From positions 62,001 to 126,000 of the forward strand of contig NZ_FRBI01000022.1 of NCBI RefSeq assembly GCF_900142575.1: DNA of 64,000 bases. Reading direction: 5' to 3'. The position numbers and the translations under genes are program-made. The first letter of the stretch is position 1; every line of letters starts with the position of its first letter. This stretch comes from Actinacidiphila paucisporea. GTDB taxonomy: Bacteria; Actinomycetota; Actinomycetes; Streptomycetales; Streptomycetaceae. The notes beneath the pieces are model-generated. The model was not told where the DNA came from and made no database searches. It saw only the letters and a list, made by a program, of their open reading frames with translations. This document shows, piece after piece, positions 3,594-54,746 of the stretch.

Positions 3594-3718
3594 GCCGGCA
3601 GCGTATCCGCCTGCCCGCACAACCGCCGGTTGTGGCCCGGCGGCCGATCGGTTGCTTGCTCGCCGCGTACGCCAGTCGGTTGGATGCCGGAGGTCGGTCG
3701 ACGGGGAGAGCGGTGGGT

Positions 3719-7708: not shown

Positions 7709-8698
7709 TCACCGCGCCCCGGACGGAGTGGCGAGCACATCCCCCAACTCCGTGCGCCGGTAGCGCACTTCGTATCCGTGCCGGCTCGCCACCACGAGCC
7801 CCGTGTCCCGCAGCACGGTCAGGTGCTGCGACACGGTGGCCGGCGCGAGCCCGTACCGGTGGGCGAGCCACCCCGTGGCGGCGGGTTCGGTGAGGCCGGT
7901 CAGCAGCCGGGCCCGGGTGCGTCCGATGAGCCGGGCCAGCGCCCCGCCGTCACCACCCGCCCCCGCCTGCCACAGGTTGCCGACGCCCCGCGCCGGATAG
8001 ATCAGCGTCGGCTGCCAGGGCGGGTCGAGCACGATCACCACCTGGTCCCACTTGAAGGCGCTCGGCATGAGCACCAGCCCTTCCCCGGACAGGTCGCGGT
8101 GGTCCGCGCCGCCGTGCTCCCGGGTGAGGACGCCGTCGTGCCAGCGCACCGACGGGTGCAGTTCGGCGAAGAGCCGGTCGAGGCCGCCCTCGGCCAGCCG
8201 CCGCGCCTGGAAGGCGATGTCCGCTTCGAGCAGCGACCTGGTCCGCGCCCAGTACGGCTCGACCAGCGCTTCCCACGCGGCGGCGACCAGGTCGGCGAGC
8301 AGCCGGACGACGTCAGCGGGATCGCCGTCGAGCAGTAGCCGGCCGGTGGCGCCGCGGGCGGCGCCCGGGGTGTCCGCGAGGGAGCGGGCGATCTCGGCGC
8401 GGGCCTGCGAGGGCGGCGTCGTGGCGATGCGCGCGAGGTCGTCGGAGAAGGAGTCGACCGGGCGGTCGGGGGGCGGGGAGAGGAAGTCGGGGGTGTAGCC
8501 GCGGCGGGGCTGGAGCAGGGTGAGCGGCCGCAGGTCGAGCCCGCGCGCGGCCTCGCCGACGTCGGCGAGCCAGCGCCGGTGGTGGCCGGGCGGCTGCGGG
8601 CCGGTCGCGACACGGACGGCGGCGAGCGTCTCGAAGGCCGGGGAGTAGGCGAAACGGCAGCGCAGCAGGTCGGCGGCGCCGAAGCGGAGGGTGGTGAT
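7709..8698 (-). CDS. ArsR-like winged-helix regulator with N-terminal DUF5937-like domain, apparent ATC start
   Basis: The C-terminal 90 residues hold an ArsR-type winged helix (LAHRYGLAPATVSQHLTVLRDTGLV). In the same frame the reading frame stays open upstream and encodes about 180 residues beginning TTLRFGAADLLRCRFAYSP, a typical N-terminus for this family of roughly 330 residues. The first in-frame ATG is only at 8149 and would remove the whole N-terminal domain. At the natural N-terminus the codon is ATC (8698-8696), placed 7 bases after a GGAGG ribosome site (8710-8706). An ATC start is therefore proposed, giving 329 residues. An upstream CTG near 8767 lacks this support. The regulatory target is unknown. 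Confidence 0.7.
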   Translation of the reverse strand: MTTLRFGAADLLRCRFAYSPAFETLAAVRVATGPQPPGHHRRWLADVGEAARGLDLRPLTLLQPRRGYTPDFLSPPPDRPVDSFSDDLARIATTPPSQARAEIARSLADTPGAARGATGRLLLDGDPADVVRLLADLVAAAWEALVEPYWARTRSLLEADIAFQARRLAEGGLDRLFAELHPSVRWHDGVLTREHGGADHRDLSGEGLVLMPSAFKWDQVVIVLDPPWQPTLIYPARGVGNLWQAGAGGDGGALARLIGRTRARLLTGLTEPAATGWLAHRYGLAPATVSQHLTVLRDTGLVVASRHGYEVRYRRTELGDVLATPSGAR

Positions 8699-8923
8699 GG
8701 CGGGACCTCCTGGGCGGGGACGTCCGGATCGGGCGGTGAGGTGGCCGGAGGTGGCGGCGGGCGGCAGGGGCGGCGGCGCGGACGGGCGCGGCGGATTTAC
8801 CGTACACGTACTGATTCGGCGAGGACCGAATCAGTGGTGCGCTCCGCGGGCGTCCTCGCACGATGGCGGGGTCCCCGGAGGACCGGCGGGCATCGGATGA
8901 GCACAGCCAGGAGTGTGGACGCC

Positions 8924-9466
8924 ATGACCGCAGCAGCACCGAGGACCGCGGCCGCCCCCGGGGCGGACTGGGAGCGCCGCAACGTCGCTCTGTGGGCGGC
9001 CGTCGAGGACTTCGCCGAGGAGGATTTCCGCGCGGCGATCGACGCCCAGGCCGGCGAGCTGCCGGAAGGCGACGGCACCGCCCTTTTCGAGCGGGCCGCC
9101 GCCTGGGACTCCACCGGCCACTCCGACCTCGCGGTCCCGCTCTACCAGGCGGCCCTCGACGCGGGCGTGCCCGGCGAGCGCCGGCGCCGCGCGGTCATCC
9201 AGATGGCCAGCTCGCTGCGCAACCTCGGCCGCCCCGAGGAGAGCGTGGCCCTGCTGACGGCGGAGCGGGAGCAGGGCCATGACCACCTGGACGACGCCGT
9301 GGCCGCCGTGCTGGCCCTCGCCCTCACCGATGTCGGCCGCGCCCGCGAGGCCGTGTCGGTGGCGGTCGGGGCGCTGGCCCCGCATCTGCCGCGCTACCAG
9401 CGGTCGATGGCCAACTACGCCCGCCTGATCGCCGAGCCGGGCCAGGAACAGTCTCCGTCGTCGTAG
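8924..9466 (+). CDS. Tetratricopeptide-repeat protein
   Basis: The 180-residue helical protein contains degenerate TPR units, for example FERAAAWDSTGHSDLAVPLYQAALDAG and a following pair with NLGRPEESVALL. TPR proteins mediate protein-protein contacts; no enzymatic motif is visible. The start at 8924 has a GGAG ten bases upstream. An in-frame ATG at 8897 would add nine residues. It is divergent from the ArsR-like regulator, which could control it, although no clear operator was identified. Confidence 0.7.
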   Translation: MTAAAPRTAAAPGADWERRNVALWAAVEDFAEEDFRAAIDAQAGELPEGDGTALFERAAAWDSTGHSDLAVPLYQAALDAGVPGERRRRAVIQMASSLRNLGRPEESVALLTAEREQGHDHLDDAVAAVLALALTDVGRAREAVSVAVGALAPHLPRYQRSMANYARLIAEPGQEQSPSS

Positions 9467-9613
9467 GGAAAGCGTTGCGCGGCCGGGGTCGGTGCCGGTC
9501 GCCGCGAAGCTGTGAAGCGCTCCGGCGGCCGAGTGCGGTCGCCGGAGCGGTTACGTTTGCCACCAGCAAGCGCCTGCTTGCAAAAGTTAGCGCAGTGGTG
9601 CACGCTCGTACGT

Positions 9614-10057
9614 ATGGCGTCACTGAAGGTCGGCAACGTCGGCGAATATCTGCGCGAGCAGCGGCGAAGCGCTCAGTTGAGCCTGCGGCAACTGGCGGAG
9701 GCGGCCGGTGTGTCGAATCCGTATCTGAGCCAGATCGAGCGCGGGCTGCGGAAGCCTAGTGCCGAGATCCTGCAGCAGCTCGCCAAGGCGCTGCGGATCT
9801 CCGCCGAGACGTTGTACGTGCAGGCGGGGATGCTCGACGCGCGGGAGCGGGATGAGCTGGAGGTGCCGGCGGCGATTTTGACGGACCCGTCGATCAACGA
9901 GCGGCAGAAGCAGGTGCTGATCCAGATCTACGAGTCCTTCCGCAAGGAGAACGCCGCCGCGGGGGAATCGCGGGCGGCGGAGGACGTGGCAAAGGAACAA
10001 GTAGAGGCGGGCCTCCCCGAGGGGCCCGCCGCCGTACGGGAGGAAACCGGAAAATGA
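9614..10057 (+). CDS. XRE family transcriptional regulator
   Basis: The 147-residue protein has a Cro/C1-type helix-turn-helix at about residues 8-62 (LREQRRSAQLSLRQLAEAAGVSNPYLSQIE), followed by an acidic, coil-prone C-terminus. The stop overlaps the ATG of the next gene by 4 bp, so the two are translationally coupled. This pairing with a heparin-binding-like protein suggests a common role, possibly at the cell surface or in development. The start at 9614 gives the natural MASLKVGNVGEYLREQRR N-terminus. Confidence 0.85.
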   Translation: MASLKVGNVGEYLREQRRSAQLSLRQLAEAAGVSNPYLSQIERGLRKPSAEILQQLAKALRISAETLYVQAGMLDARERDELEVPAAILTDPSINERQKQVLIQIYESFRKENAAAGESRAAEDVAKEQVEAGLPEGPAAVREETGK

Positions 10058-10581
10058 CGATCACCGACGACATCGTGAAGAGCCTGCGCAACCCGACCCC
10101 GCTGTACGCGGTCGCCGGCACCGCGGACCTGGCCGCCGAGAAGCTGCGCGAGGTCCCGGCGCTGATCGAAAAGCTCAAGGAGCAGGCGCCCGAGCACTTC
10201 GAGCGGATCAGGACCACCGACCCCAAGGTCGTGCAGGGCAGGGTCACCGCGGGCGCGAAGGACGCGCAGGCGAAGCTGACGGAGACCTACCGCGAGATCG
10301 ACCTCAAGGCCTTCAAGGAGATGCCCGACTTCAAGAAGCTGGGCGAGTCCGTGCAGGACCTGGCGCTGCAGAGCGTCGGCCGGGCCACCGGCTACGCGGT
10401 GAAGGCCCGCGAGACGTACGACGAGCTGGCCGTGCGCGGCAAGGGCGCCTTCGCGAGCTGGCGCGGCGAGGGCGGCGCCAAGCCCGGCGCGATCACCGCG
10501 GGCGGGACCAAGCCCGCCGCGGCCCCCAAGGCGCCGGAGCGCAAGCCCGCCGCCAAGAAGGCCGACAAGCCGGCCGAGTAG
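10054..10581 (+). CDS. Heparin-binding hemagglutinin-like (HbhA-like) protein
   Basis: A 175-residue protein that is largely helical with heptad-like charged segments (residues about 20-110) and a lysine/proline/alanine-rich C-terminal tail (APKAPERKPAAKKADKPAE). This is the layout of mycobacterial HbhA, whose Lys-rich tail binds sulfated glycans. No signal peptide is visible, as in HbhA itself. It overlaps the upstream XRE gene by 4 bp. A strong hairpin follows at 10603. In Streptomyces its function is not defined by sequence. Confidence 0.7.
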   Translation: MTITDDIVKSLRNPTPLYAVAGTADLAAEKLREVPALIEKLKEQAPEHFERIRTTDPKVVQGRVTAGAKDAQAKLTETYREIDLKAFKEMPDFKKLGESVQDLALQSVGRATGYAVKARETYDELAVRGKGAFASWRGEGGAKPGAITAGGTKPAAAPKAPERKPAAKKADKPAE

Positions 10582-10602
10582 TCGTGTGAGCCGTACACGC
10601 GG

Positions 10603-10642
10603 ACAACGGGGCCGGGCACGGATCGCGCGCCCGGCCCGTTGT
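10603..10642 (+). terminator. Rho-independent-type hairpin after the XRE/HbhA-like pair
   Basis: Arms 10603-10617 and 10629-10642 (ACAACGGGGCCGGGC against GCCCGGCCCGTTGT) pair with a single bulged G around an 11-base loop. There is no U-tract, as is common in Streptomyces terminators. Confidence 0.75.
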
Positions 10643-10725
10643 ACGCGTGCGACCGGTACGGTGGCACCCGGACGTCAGCTGACGTACGGCGGGCGGTAAG
10701 CGGATGGCAAAGGCGGGTGGACGGC

Positions 10726-11091
10726 GTGCTGGTCACACAGTTCTTCGGAGTGGTCGCCCTGATCTCCTGGGCGCTCTTCCTCTTCGCGGCCTTCGCGTTC
10801 GTCGACGCGGCCGTGCGCCGCGAGGACGCGTACCGAGCGGCGAACAAGAACAAGAAGAGCTTCTGGCTGATCATCCTCGGCATCGCCGCCGTGGTGATGA
10901 AGCTGTTCCCGATCCTGTCGTTCCTGCCGGTGATCGGCCTGGTCGCCGTGATCGTCTACATGGTGGACGTACGGCCCGCGGTCCGCGAGGTCAGCGGCGG
11001 CCGAGGTGGCGGCGCGGTGCGCAGGCTGCGCGGGCGCAGCCGCGCCAGCAGTAGCGACGGGCCCTACGGTCCGTACAACGGCCGCCGGTAA
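10726..11091 (+). CDS. DUF2516 family membrane protein
   Basis: The 121-residue protein has an N-terminal transmembrane helix (FFGVVALISWALFLFAAFAF), a charged loop with FVDAAVRREDAYRAANKNKK, and a hydrophobic pair (LIILGIAAVVMKLFPILSFLPVIGLVAVIVYMVDVRPAVREV). These are features of the small actinobacterial DUF2516 membrane proteins of unknown role. The GTG at 10726 is preferred for giving the usual MLVTQFFG-type N-terminus; a GTG at 10717 is an alternative. The tail is Arg/Ser/Gly-rich. Confidence 0.75.
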   Translation: MLVTQFFGVVALISWALFLFAAFAFVDAAVRREDAYRAANKNKKSFWLIILGIAAVVMKLFPILSFLPVIGLVAVIVYMVDVRPAVREVSGGRGGGAVRRLRGRSRASSSDGPYGPYNGRR

Positions 11092-35351: not shown

Positions 35352-35425
35352 GCCTCCTTAGCTCAGCTGGCCAGAGCGACGCTCTTGTAAAGCGTAGGTC
35401 GTCGGTTCGAACCCGACAGGGGGCT
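35352..35425 (+). tRNA. tRNA-Thr (anticodon TGT)
   Basis: GCCTCCT (acceptor) at 35352 pairs with AGGGGGC ending at 35424, with one G-T wobble. The D-arm (AGCTCAGCTGG), an anticodon loop CTTGTAA with TGT, a short variable region and the T-arm CGGTTCGAACCCG are all present. CCA is not encoded. A T-run follows. Its 3' 45 bp are duplicated at 39746, marking it as the attachment site of an integrative island. Confidence 0.95.
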
Positions 35426-35427
35426 CT
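35383..35427 (+). repeat. attL-type 45-bp direct repeat in tRNA-Thr
   Basis: The 45 bases from the anticodon loop through the tRNA 3' end (TCTTGTAAAGCG... to GGGGGCTCT) recur exactly at 39746-39790 in the same orientation. This is the usual structure left by tyrosine-recombinase integration at a tRNA. Confidence 0.9.
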
Positions 35428-35492
35428 TTTTCTTGCCTGGTCAGGGCGCCTTCGCCCGGTCCCGGTCGGCGAGGCCGGGGCGCCCGGCACAC

Positions 35493-35505
35493 ATTCAGCA
35501 CACAT
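35493..35505 (+). repeat. 13-bp repeat inside left island end (candidate integrase arm site)
   Basis: ATTCAGCACACAT recurs exactly at 39628-39640, each copy about 65-106 bp inside an att repeat. This fits an arm-type recombinase site but is unproven. Confidence 0.4.
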
Positions 35506-36264: not shown

Positions 36265-37166
36265 TCAGTCCGTCGTCATGTCCGTCCCACGCAGGGCTGT
36301 TGTGCCCTCTGTGAGCACTGCCTGGGACCTGGCGAGGAGCATGGCCCGGCGCTCGTCCATCTTGTCGGAGACCTCATCGAGGCGGTCGGGCAAAAGGTGG
36401 CCGTAGACGTCGAGGGTCAGCGTCGCGGACTTGTGGCCGAGCATCGTCTGGATGACGTTCACGTCGGCGCCGCTGGCGATGGCGAGCGACGCGGCGGTGT
36501 GCCGCAGCTTGTGCGGGGTCAGGTGGAGGTGGCCGAGTCCGGCTGCGCGGACCGCCGGGTCGAAGAAGCGGCTGCGGAAGTTGCTGATCCGCAAGGGGCC
36601 GCCTTGGGGTGCGGTGAAGAGGAGCTGGTCCGGCGTGCGGCCGTCGATATGAGCGGCCAGTTCACCGAGGAGGAACCGGGGGAGCGGCACCGAGCGGCGC
36701 TCGTGATTCTTCGGGGTGTCCAGGTGGAGGACGCCCCTCTCGTCTACATACGCCTGTACCACGTGAGCCCGTCGCGCGCCGACGTCCACCCGGCCCACGG
36801 TGAGGGCTGACGCCTCGCCCCAGCGCAGGCCGGTGTAGCCGAGCAGCCGGATGAACAGCCCGTACGGGCCTGCCGCTTCGGCGAGCGCCTCCCCTGGACC
36901 ACGTCGAGATAGACGTGTTCGGCCTCAGCCGCCCTGGGAAGCGGGACGTCAACTGCCGGGTTGTGACTCAGCCGCTGCGACTTGACCGCGTAGCCAAGGA
37001 CGCTGCTGAGGACGACGTACGCCTTCCGTACGCTCCGCGCACTCAGCTCGCGGCCGGTGGCCGTCCGCCCGGCCGACAGGTCGGCCAGCCACTGCGCCAC
37101 GTCGTCGTACCGGATGCGGTCCAGAGGCGTCGTCCCCCACCCGACCGGCGTCGCCGGCGGCGTCAT
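36265..37166 (-). pseudogene. Tyrosine site-specific integrase, frameshifted and N-terminally truncated
   Basis: The 5' part (37166 to about 36897) encodes the core-binding domain (RYDDVAQWLADLSAGRTATGR...). It then runs out of frame near 36890-36897. From there the next frame continues with EALAEAAGPYGLFIRLLGYTGLRWGEA and the catalytic domain: Arg in TGLRWGEA, HKLRHTAASL, and LGHKSATLTLDVYGHL with the nucleophile Tyr. A one- or two-base indel explains this. The N-terminal arm-binding domain is also missing. The gene should be inactive. It belongs to the island integrated in tRNA-Thr. Confidence 0.8.
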
Positions 37167-37439
37167 CGGGTCTCCTCGATACGGACAGCGCGGCGGCGGA
37201 GGGGCCTCGCGCTACAGGGGATGGCACGTGGCCTGGCAGACGACGGCATCGGGTTGCTCCTCTCGGTACGTACGGTGAGCAGCAACTGTCGTTCTGTGAT
37301 GGCAAGGTCGACTTCCCCGGCGCGGGTATACCCATGGTGGGTCTCTTTCGGGCCTGTGTGACGCACACTCGGTTGAACTGGCAGGACGGGAAAGTGCGAT
37401 GACCGGATACCGACCAGCGACCGCGTTGCCGCGCGCCAT

Positions 37440-37647
37440 CGTCGAACGAGCGGACATGCGGGCCGCGAGGCGCAAACGGCTCAGCATTATCCAACACGCG
37501 AAGCAGCAGATCTCTAGCGCCGGAGGCGTGACGCTCGCTTGGGATCAGGCTCGCTACATATTGAAGCACATCGAATTCGCGTCCCGAAGGAGCGCTACGG
37601 ATGAATTCTCGGACGGTACCGACCGTCAAGCCGTTGCTTGCTGCCAT
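37440..37647 (-). pseudogene. N-terminal stub downstream of the HamA-like gene, possibly a helicase (HamB-like)
   Basis: A frame beginning MAASNGLTVGTVREFIRSAPS overlaps the end of the HamA-like gene by 22 bp. It continues about 68 residues to LLLRVLDNAEPFAPRGPHVRSF before losing coding character. In Hachiman systems hamA is followed by a helicase gene hamB, and this stretch is reminiscent of the start of such a helicase. No ATPase motif is present, so the call is tentative and the gene is surely broken. Confidence 0.35.
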
Positions 37648-38216
37648 GCCCTAAGCCTCTCATGGAGGTCTGACAGAAGGGTCTTCTTCTCGTGTAGCGG
37701 AACGAGAATCAGCCGGATGCGTACCCGCCTCGGCAGACCAGCTGCGGCAAAACGCTCCCACCCAGCTCGGATTTCTGCTTCAAAAGCCTTTCGATACGCC
37801 GCTGCTGTCGAGCTTGGTGATTCGTTTAGGTCTCTGCTTAGCTCACGAACGCGCTCCGCTACCGTGTCGTTGTGGGAATCCTTAAAGAAGATCTTGCTAA
37901 TTGCGATCTCAGTCCCAAAGATCTCTCTGAGAACCACATGCAAGAGTAGTTCGCCGAATTCTCCACGCCGGTGGTACTTGTCGGTCAAGTAGATATTCTT
38001 GACCGCGCGGCTGAGCATTTCGACGCCTGTTTCGCTATCGAAATCAGCGGCCTCGCTCTGCGACAAGGCAAACTCTGGGAGGCGTGTGAACATTTGGTTG
38101 GCCAGTGCGCGCCGTCGCCATTCGCCAAGCTCATATCCGGCACATAGGCCGCTCAATGCTGGGTTGGTGCCCGCATCGTCAACGAGAACTTCGAGTAGGG
38201 CGCGGGGGCGTGTCAC
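37626..38216 (-). CDS. DUF1837/HamA-like (Hachiman defence) protein with an apparent internal deletion
   Basis: The 196-residue product reads like the N- and C-terminal parts of the DUF1837 family: LTDKYHRRGEFGELLLHVVL, then EIFGTEIAISKIFFKDSHND, and a C-terminal IRLILVPLHEKKTLLSDLHE. HamA proteins are normally about 250-300 residues. Here the sequence jumps from NDTV directly to AERVRELSRDL, omitting the segment that should follow (K-G-F-D and the G-E-x-K nuclease core). The deletion is in frame. GTG start at 38216 after AGGAA. Base composition is less GC-rich than that of neighbours, a sign of transfer. It is unlikely to be catalytically active. Confidence 0.6.
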   Translation of the reverse strand: MTRPRALLEVLVDDAGTNPALSGLCAGYELGEWRRRALANQMFTRLPEFALSQSEAADFDSETGVEMLSRAVKNIYLTDKYHRRGEFGELLLHVVLREIFGTEIAISKIFFKDSHNDTVAERVRELSRDLNESPSSTAAAYRKAFEAEIRAGWERFAAAGLPRRVRIRLILVPLHEKKTLLSDLHERLRAWQQATA

Positions 38217-38918
38217 GAGTTCCTGCCAGCATCAGCGCCATCAAGACGTGCGGGCAAGGCTTGAAGGGCAGGTTGACTCCGTGAATCCGTGTAAAAGTAT
38301 CTTCCCCCACTCTCCCCGTCCGGCATACATGATGCACCCGATCTGTCGCTTGTGGGCCGCCCTTGCACGATTTTGCCTATAGGGGTGTCGGTGGAGCAGG
38401 AGATTCGAATGTACGTACGATGCGGTGAGGTTACTTCGGGGGTGAGAGTTAGGCCAGTGAGCGGAAGAGCTTGCCTGCCGTTTTGCGGACTTGACCCCCC
38501 ATGAGCGCGCGCACTTCTGTCAGTTCGTTCAGGTGCCGTGCTGTGGATCACGTGATGCGGTTCGGGGATGGGCGCGAGGCCGGACACCTTGGTCGTACCC
38601 TCGCTCCTGCCTCATGCATCGACACCACGTGACGAGACTGGCTGAACGACTCCACGGGGGGACTTGTCCCGGATAGCCGAGGTGAGCGGTGGATCGCCGT
38701 AGTACGCCGGGAAGCTTGGCCAACCTGTGGCCACAGCGCCGGAGTGCTTGAACCCCTTCGTCCGTGACCGCGTCGCAGGCGTCGCCTCCGTCCGCCCCGC
38801 GCCCTCTGACCCTGCTCCTGAGATGCCTTGATGCGCACCGAGGTCTTCTCACGAGCGCGCGATTCCCCACAGGCGGCGTGGACCGCCGGCCTTTACACGT
38901 CCAACGGGGTTGCTGGAA
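38217..38918. other. 702-bp region inside the island, no gene recognised
   Basis: Only short antisense frames without convincing start sites or family resemblance occur here. The sequence at about 38430-38500 contains TTGACCCCCC and a long purine-rich run that could be an old transposon border, but no inverted-repeat partner was found. It may hold decayed island DNA and the promoter of the HamA-like gene. Confidence 0.4.
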
Positions 38919-39341
38919 TCAGGCGGTGGTTGCCTCGAAGGTCTCGATCGTGCAGCGGGCCGCGCCGCTGCGTTCGATCCTGGCGTCGCTGGTGATGAGC
39001 GGTACGCCGAAGGTCTCGGCGAGGGCTACGTAGTGTGCGTCGTAGGCGGAGAGGTTGCTCGAGAGGTCGCGTACCCGTGGCCACAGCGCGAGTGTCGGGT
39101 GCAGGTCGAGAGCGAGGGCCTGGTAGTCGGTGATCGCCTTGGCGGCTTCCTTTTCTGTGATCTTCGGCTTGCCCCCGCGCCGACCGCGCGCCAAGCCGAA
39201 GATGGCCGAAGTGATCTCGTAGTCCAGCAGGCCCGGTGCCGCGAGAGTGTCCGCGTGACCCACCCGCTCGCGGATCGCGGTTCCCGTCGTCCCGTGGTCG
39301 AGGAGGAAGTGAACAAGGCTGGAGCAGTCAATGACGATCAA
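38919..39341 (-). CDS. vapC: VapC-type PIN-domain toxin
   Basis: The 140-residue protein begins MIVIDCSSLVHFLL, the PIN-domain start with its first acidic residue. The later LDYEITSAIFGL, AYDAHYVALAETFGVPLITSD and terminal acidic positions complete the metal-binding set of VapC ribonucleases. The start is TTG at 39341, overlapping the antitoxin stop by 4 bases. With the preceding VapB it forms a type II toxin-antitoxin operon just inside the right end of the island. Confidence 0.88.
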   Translation of the reverse strand: MIVIDCSSLVHFLLDHGTTGTAIRERVGHADTLAAPGLLDYEITSAIFGLARGRRGGKPKITEKEAAKAITDYQALALDLHPTLALWPRVRDLSSNLSAYDAHYVALAETFGVPLITSDARIERSGAARCTIETFEATTA

Positions 39342-39568
39342 CGTCGTTCCCGCCCGTCCTCGATGGCGCTGAGGATGTCGGTCGTGCTGAGCGCTGTGCG
39401 GGTTTCACGCTCAAGACGTGCTGCCATTTCCGCGAGGGTGGGCCTGGCGGCCTCCCGGGACAGGAGTTCCAGGGCGTACGCCTGGAGAGACTTGCCCGCC
39501 TGCGCGGCGCGTACCTTCAAGGCGTTGACTGTGTCGTCCGGGACGTCCCGGATGGTGATCGCGGTCAT
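39338..39568 (-). CDS. vapB: VapB/FitA-like ribbon-helix-helix antitoxin
   Basis: A 76-residue antitoxin. The N-terminal strand TAITIRDVPDDTVNALKVRAAQAGKSL is the ribbon-helix-helix DNA-binding unit (FitA/Phd-like Arc fold), and the acidic C-terminal helix should block the VapC active site. It lies first in the operon, overlapping vapC by 4 bases, as is standard. It probably represses its own promoter. Confidence 0.88.
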   Translation of the reverse strand: MTAITIRDVPDDTVNALKVRAAQAGKSLQAYALELLSREAARPTLAEMAARLERETRTALSTTDILSAIEDGRERR

Positions 39569-39627
39569 GCATTCATTTTAGCATCATTGCAGGCAATGTG
39601 CAGGCACGTTTGTGTTGCGGAGCACGG

Positions 39628-39640
39628 ATTCAGCACACAT
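39628..39640 (+). repeat. 13-bp repeat inside right island end (candidate integrase arm site)
   Basis: Exact copy of ATTCAGCACACAT at 35493, in the same orientation, 106 bp inside the right att repeat. Confidence 0.4.
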
Positions 39641-39745: not shown

Positions 39746-39790
39746 TCTTGTAAAGCGTAGGTCGTCGGTTCGAACCCGACAGGGGGCTCT
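39746..39790 (+). repeat. attR-type 45-bp direct repeat
   Basis: Exact copy of tRNA-Thr positions 35383-35427, lacking the tRNA 5' half. With the left copy it bounds a 4.4-kb island holding a broken integrase, HamA-like gene and VapBC. Confidence 0.9.
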
Positions 39791-53435: not shown

Positions 53436-54746
53436 TCAGCGGACGGGTGCCGCACAAAGCGGCGGGTCGTCGCCGTCGTCGGGCTCGCTGACGGACTCCG
53501 AGGGTTTGGCGAGAGCTTGGCCGAGGAGGTCGATGGCGTCGCGCTGGAGGCGGAGTCGGACGTGGGCGTAAACCGTCGCGGTCACGCCGATGTGGGCATG
53601 CCCCAGGAGTTCCTTGATCACGACAAGTTCGACGCCCTGCTCCAGGAGGAGGGTGGCCGCCGAGTGCCGGAGATCGTGGAACCGGATACGGCGGAGCGTG
53701 GCGCGGCGGAGCAGGGCGTTGAAGTGCCGGGTGAGGGTGGCTCCCTCGATCGGATTGCCGTCGGGCCGGGTGAAGACGTAGCCGCTCGCCTTCCAGCCTG
53801 TCCCTGTTGCTTCGCGTTCCTGGCGCTGCCGGTCGCGGTGCTGTTCGAGGGAGTGCAGGCACTCGGTGGGCAGGGCGATGCGCCGCTCCGAGCTCTGCGT
53901 CTTCGTCGGCAGGGCGGTCAGGCCGACGGAGTTGGTGCGTTGGAGGGTACGGCGGATGCTGGCGGTTCCGCCGGCCAGGTCGAGGTCTTCCCAGCGTAGG
54001 CCGAGGAGTTCGCCTTTGCGGAGTCCGGTGCGCAGGGCGAGTTCGAATAGCGCGCTCAGCCGGTGCCCGCTCGTGGCGGTCAGGAACGCGCGCGCCTCCT
54101 CGGCGGTGAGGGGCTCGAACCGGCGGGGCCGGGGGGTGCCCATGCGGACGTTGCGGGCGACGTTGCGGGGTATCTCCTCTTCGCGGACGGCGTGTTCCAG
54201 GGCGGACTTGAGGACGGAGTGCACGTAGGCCAGCGTCAGCGGGGAAAGCCGCCTGCGGCAGCACGTCCCGACGGCACAGCACTGGGGCTGGTCGCGGGCG
54301 GTGTCGAGGCCGCGTGTGCAGCACTGGCAGGTGGTGCGGAGTTGGTCGAGCCAGGTGCGGACGTCCTTGGCGGTGAGCTTGGCGAGCTTCTTCTTGCCCA
54401 GGCCGGGGATGACGTACAGCCGGACGACGGCGGTGTAGCGGGTGTGGGTGTTCTCACGCAGTCGGTGGACGGCGACGGTCTCCAGCCAGTAGGTGAGGAA
54501 CGCTGCGAGGCTGCCCTGGGCGGAGGGGGTGGGGACGCCGCGGTTGCTTGTGGCGATCTTCTCGGTGAGCTTGGCGAGGGTGTCCTTTCGGGTGGTGCCG
54601 TAGACGCGGACGCGCTTGCGGGTGTCGCCGGGGGCGAGGACGTATCCGGCGGCTTCCCAGCGGCCGTCCTTGCGCTGGTAGACGGTGCCGTCGCCGTTGG
54701 CGCGGCTACGGCGCGAGGGGACGGGGGTGTCGCGGGGTGTGGTCAT
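53436..54746 (-). CDS. Tyrosine site-specific integrase of the AICE
   Basis: The 436-residue product has an N-terminal arm-binding part (GDGTVYQRKDGRWEAAGYV), then a SAM-like core-binding domain containing a Cys-rich insert (CQCCTRG ... CCAVGTCC) that might bind zinc. The catalytic domain has Arg in LRTGLRKGELLGLRW, FHDLRHSAATLLLEQ, and LGHAHIGVTATVYAHV with the nucleophile Tyr. All catalytic residues are present, so it is probably active. Its ATG overlaps the excisionase TGA by one base. It is the last gene of the AICE operon, adjoining the left repeat, a standard AICE layout. Confidence 0.93.
   Translation of the reverse strand: MTTPRDTPVPSRRSRANGDGTVYQRKDGRWEAAGYVLAPGDTRKRVRVYGTTRKDTLAKLTEKIATSNRGVPTPSAQGSLAAFLTYWLETVAVHRLRENTHTRYTAVVRLYVIPGLGKKKLAKLTAKDVRTWLDQLRTTCQCCTRGLDTARDQPQCCAVGTCCRRRLSPLTLAYVHSVLKSALEHAVREEEIPRNVARNVRMGTPRPRRFEPLTAEEARAFLTATSGHRLSALFELALRTGLRKGELLGLRWEDLDLAGGTASIRRTLQRTNSVGLTALPTKTQSSERRIALPTECLHSLEQHRDRQRQEREATGTGWKASGYVFTRPDGNPIEGATLTRHFNALLRRATLRRIRFHDLRHSAATLLLEQGVELVVIKELLGHAHIGVTATVYAHVRLRLQRDAIDLLGQALAKPSESVSEPDDGDDPPLCAAPVR

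Follow-up and report, generated by a model that had tools for sequence, protein, structure and literature searches.

The locus described here is very probably a recently destroyed Hachiman operon on a decaying, mobile tRNA-Thr island, left as a pseudogene remnant without defence function. It lies in a 64,000-nucleotide stretch of the genome of Actinacidiphila paucisporea (contig NZ_FRBI01000022.1, positions 62,001 to 126,000 of the forward strand), which is called the window throughout and to which coordinates refer unless another locus is named. The host is a soil actinomycete.

In the proposed course of events, a Hachiman operon, comprising the HamA nuclease and the HamB helicase, would have been carried on a tRNA-Thr integrative island and would recently have been hit by separate lesions: one deletion would have taken exactly 100 hamA codons, including the active site, another event would have spared no more than the first 59 hamB codons, and the integrase of the island would have lost its N-terminal part and suffered a shift of frame. 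The short hamA frame would survive only because the damage is recent.

Remnants of hamA and hamB

The hamA remnant is a frame of 196 aa with a GTG start (38216..37626, minus strand). It runs without stop or frameshift and unites, in one reading frame, the counterparts of residues 1-119 and residues 220-296 of a HamA of 296 residues. The DUF1837/HamA similarity that a sequence-only reading had ascribed to a 196-residue protein here was confirmed by PADLOC, which calls the frame HamA (E 4.6e-55; best stretch residues 2-119), and by a Pfam search, in which the similarity to PF08878 (DUF1837) is significant (E 1.1e-17, 65.1 bits at a cut-off of 25) and covers profile positions 3-83 of 230 only. 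An NCBIfam search at E 0.1 gave no match for either the hamA or the hamB remnant, and structure prediction reached very low confidence both for the 196-aa protein (mean pLDDT 39.2 from a 3-sequence alignment) and for intact HamA (37.0 from a 2-sequence alignment).

The nearest named relative carrying the gene, Actinacidiphila yanglinensis (G033; NZ_FNVU01000007.1), has both genes complete, with a 296-aa HamA at 7774-8664 and a 710-aa HamB at 8643-10775 of locus L007 (PADLOC E 3.1e-106 and 2.4e-232) and with PF08878 matched over profile positions 2-229 of 230. The window shares with this operon HamA residues 1-119 (101/119 identical) and 220-296 (62/77), HamB residues 1-59, the overlap of the two genes and a stretch upstream, but lacks the nuclease core and most of hamB. 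ARAGORN detected no tRNA gene in the 18-20 kb around the A. yanglinensis pair; a gene whose product has an MrcB domain at the N-terminus and a NO VEIN domain at the C-terminus lies near it (L007 4857-6086, minus strand), and a DUF3883 gene lies near the Rhodovastum hamAB.

Against the A. yanglinensis gene, the window hamA shows a single gap of 300 bp, or 100 codons (L007 ~8130-8429), at 37859-37864 on the minus strand, where five breakpoints fit equally well and the joined ends share 2-4 bp of microhomology; the remaining 588 nt align without gaps, with 274/356 identical bases before the break and 178/232 after it. The direct passage from FFKDSHNDTV to AERVRELSRDL described in the sequence-only reading is present, and at that place the intact counterpart is longer by exactly 100 residues. 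What is lost is residues 120-219, from K120 of KGFD through GEVK (140-143) to V219, the other 196 being kept; the K-G-F-D and G-E-x-K motifs reported as missing thus fall within the gap, as does the D-E(X)K nuclease motif. Among four intact or nearly full HamA relatives that were aligned, three carry KGFD and GEVK and the fourth KSFD and GEAK, in the stretch that is absent from the window copy. Comparison with intact HamAB therefore bears out the removal, in frame, of the nuclease core from a decayed Hachiman module. Being a one-in-three chance outcome, the preservation of the frame is by itself no evidence of selection.

The following frame overlaps hamA by 22 bp (37626-37647), as had been claimed, and an overlap of just this length is seen in the intact operon (L007 8643-8664). 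Its helicase-like start is that of HamB, with 50/59 residues identical to the A. yanglinensis protein (tblastn 84.7%), but the break that had been placed after 68 residues was not recovered: homology ends at residue 59 of 710, near 37471, so that the hamB remnant occupies 37471-37647 on the minus strand, and the frame from 37647 stays open to 36949, 232 aa in all, running into foreign, non-HamB sequence (36949-37470, minus strand). Between the integrase and hamB remnants, the segment 37146-37468 shares 87-88% identity with a portion of another tRNA-Thr island (L056). About 650 hamB codons are missing relative to A. yanglinensis, and the helicase that should be encoded with HamA is reduced at the locus to residues 1-59. 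Across the genome, a HamB query found no full-length HamB, only this stub and one weak match on another contig (26%, E 5.2e-4), and a PF08878 search found no second HamA, the 196-aa frame being the sole match. Since the nuclease motif is lost and no HamB turned up, the genome would not be expected to provide Hachiman activity. In published accounts, HamB keeps HamA silent in intact Hachiman and releases it on damaged DNA, and the accessible text of PMC12278908 reports that HamA E138A,K140A, or removal of the helix-loop-helix motifs of HamA, abolishes defence.

About 100 bp upstream of hamA, a 54-bp stretch (38315-38368, minus strand) that agrees with the corresponding A. yanglinensis sequence at 48/54 positions is perhaps the control region of the hamAB operon; a scan for consensus promoters and terminators detected nothing.

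The island at tRNA-Thr

The remnants lie on a 4.4-kb island bounded by a tRNA-Thr gene with anticodon TGT (35352-35426, plus strand), the integration site, and a perfect repeat of its 3' end, the left attachment repeat (35383-35427, plus strand) and the right one (39746-39790, plus strand) being identical at 45/45 positions. Together with a Phage_integrase-family remnant, the tRNA gene and the direct repeat mark the region as a tRNA-integrated genomic island. The remnant is a broken tyrosine integrase (36286-37139, minus strand), equivalent to residues 219-503 of a 509-residue relative in G004, spread over two frames and missing its N-terminal part. Beyond hamA, the island carries an open gene for a PIN-domain toxin of FitB/VapC type (38919-39341, minus strand) and another, also open, for a FitA-like ribbon-helix-helix antitoxin (39338-39568, minus strand). 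As a whole it is a patchwork, parts of which match DNA of the genomes G005, G004/G028/G024, G034, G033 and G006. In G006, a piece of integrase corresponding to window 36618-36785 passes straight into sequence matching the window from 38627 onward, the two matches overlapping by 4 bp, so the hamAB stretch is absent there.

The tRNA-Thr(TGT) gene is an integration hotspot in the genus. Extra copies of its 3' end were counted by eye on the same contig in 15/35 genus genomes, about 0.9-96 kb away, with two or more in a row in several genomes. When 20 proteins were picked by hand from seven tRNA-Thr loci (L049, L050, L052-L056; rough gene finding), six had a PADLOC match at 1e-6 or better, the models being chiefly candidate (PDC) families plus two 'mad' models. 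Just inside both attachment sites of the window island lies a 19-bp direct repeat with 2 mismatches (35487-35505 and 39622-39640), possibly marking integrase arm sites; with at most 4 mismatches allowed, it recurs in 9/9 tRNA-Thr loci (L048-L056) and is absent from L007, L008 and L057, a count made without a shuffled control. A second copy of the attachment sequence lies on another contig of the same genome (G000:C71:591-647, L048), accompanied by a piece resembling an integrase (93% over 164 bp) and, at 3705, by a partial copy of 29 bp. Within the integrase remnant, ARAGORN calls a 93-nt tRNA-Ala (36442-36534, plus strand) that is probably false, and a second tyrosine integrase of the window (53559-54524, minus strand) is 26% identical to the G004 island integrase.

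Rarity, conservation and competing readings

HamA is rare in the samples searched, and the join was met once. The 196-aa query matched in 2/35 genomes of the genus and 3/394 of the family, the window genome counted in both. PF08878 matched in 6/394 family genomes (five over the cut-off) and in 1/396 phylum genomes, the latter being the window genome itself; in the family set a length of about 200 aa is confined to the window copy, and the five remaining open frames measure 282-346 aa, three of these five being weak, partial matches. Intact HamA as query matched 8 plasmid and 2 phage records and no viral contig, whereas the 196-aa query matched 3 plasmid records, none covering 80% of the query and all three stopping at residue 119. 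The join, written as a degenerate DNA pattern, had 0 matches in viral contigs. A contig scan, which finds close relatives only, picked up A. yanglinensis and, in Acinetobacter, an interrupted gene. The latter, the HamA of Acinetobacter sichuanensis (L010), is likewise broken within the gene but by another route: the break is not an in-frame deletion, and the frame stops a little way past GEVKFY, with VITE as its last residues, where it meets a short insertion-like piece of ~113 bp whose inverted ends measure 12 bp (L010 10473-10585). A homologue with the same join, which would have spoken against a decayed gene, was thus not found in the genus, family, phylum, plasmid, phage and viral samples or in the close-relative scans, which cover a selection of all genomes.

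Three observations run against a pseudogene: the frame is open, the window branch does not change faster, and the 54 bp upstream are conserved. On the second point, amino-acid changes polarised with G316 over 195 codons assign 5 to the window branch and 9 to the intact one, with 19 more positions differing in all three, and hence indicate no speeding-up on the window branch. All three fit recent loss, and they would also fit a retained short protein.

Conservation itself was considered as proof of function and rejected. Relative to A. yanglinensis, dN/dS is 0.07 and 0.14 for the two hamA pieces (101/119 and 62/77 codons with the same amino acid) and 0.04 for the hamB stub (49/58), ratios that are rough at a dS of 0.97-2.7; both comparisons with G316 are saturated in dS and give no usable ratio. 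The broken integrase stands at 0.14-0.17 against G004, and toxin and antitoxin at 0.23 and 0.08 against G006. Values as low as 0.04-0.17 are therefore also found in the plainly broken hamB stub and integrase, and since the two open integrases (G004 against G028) lie at 0.52, above the broken pieces, dN/dS is here a poor guide to whether a gene is alive or dead. The damage looks fresh, and the shortened HamA and the hamB stub are conserved to a similar extent, so that conservation is no argument that the short protein has been retained for a function.

It is against this background that a role for the shortened HamA as decoy or regulator, keeping HamB-binding parts and blocking the HamB of incoming Hachiman systems or otherwise regulating such systems, has to be judged, and we consider it very unlikely. 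The in-frame join and open frame, the conserved upstream stretch and the unaccelerated branch are compatible with it, and two of the three HamB-contact stretches of HamA given in the accessible literature (30-63 and 102-117) would fall in the kept part, whereas the third (159-199) would fall in the deletion, residue numbers being transferred by motif offset only (published E138/K140 corresponding to E141/K143 in A. yanglinensis). AbpAB also counts in its favour: AbpA (8zue_A), the best profile match among solved structures (E 1.2e-20), has a HamA-like C-terminal domain, described as catalytically inactive in the accessible part of the Cell paper. The AbpA match, however, runs through the very stretch deleted from the window HamA, and according to the same text AbpA works with a helicase and carries another nuclease domain, both of which the window protein lacks. 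Among solved structures, sequence searches found 8zue_A and 9wh1_A but not the HamAB structure 8VXA cited in that paper. Against a decoy or regulator also stand the lack of a full HamB, the natural partner, in the genome, the comparable conservation of the hamB stub and the lack of a same-join homologue in the samples searched, so that the short regulatory or decoy protein left open by the sequence-only reading gains no clear support. A more specific form, in which a 196-aa HamA made from the old control region would act as a dominant-negative decoy tying up the HamB of Hachiman systems that arrive at this tRNA-Thr site on rival islands, is extremely unlikely; the decoy idea is a long shot.

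It is just as improbable that the deletion reflects an assembly or sequencing error, with the true gene either intact or damaged in another way. An assembly split into 78 contigs leaves some room for such an error, but only 2-4 bp are common to the joined ends, so that repeat collapse is not expected, and the nearby hamB and integrase lesions are separate. A naturally short, ancestral HamA family that never underwent a deletion has next to no probability, as no support for it was found, full-length HamA exists in G033, G316 and a Rhodovastum plasmid, and an exact 100-codon gap separates parts that are 85% and 81% identical to A. yanglinensis.

The hamA remnant is, in all, very probably an ordinary pseudogene and probably a recent one. 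With a breakpoint that can be placed within a few bases beside an intact operon, it offers a well-bounded case of the death of a defence system, and it illustrates that an open, conserved-looking short frame is not alone evidence of function, the leftover stub of its partner being about equally conserved.
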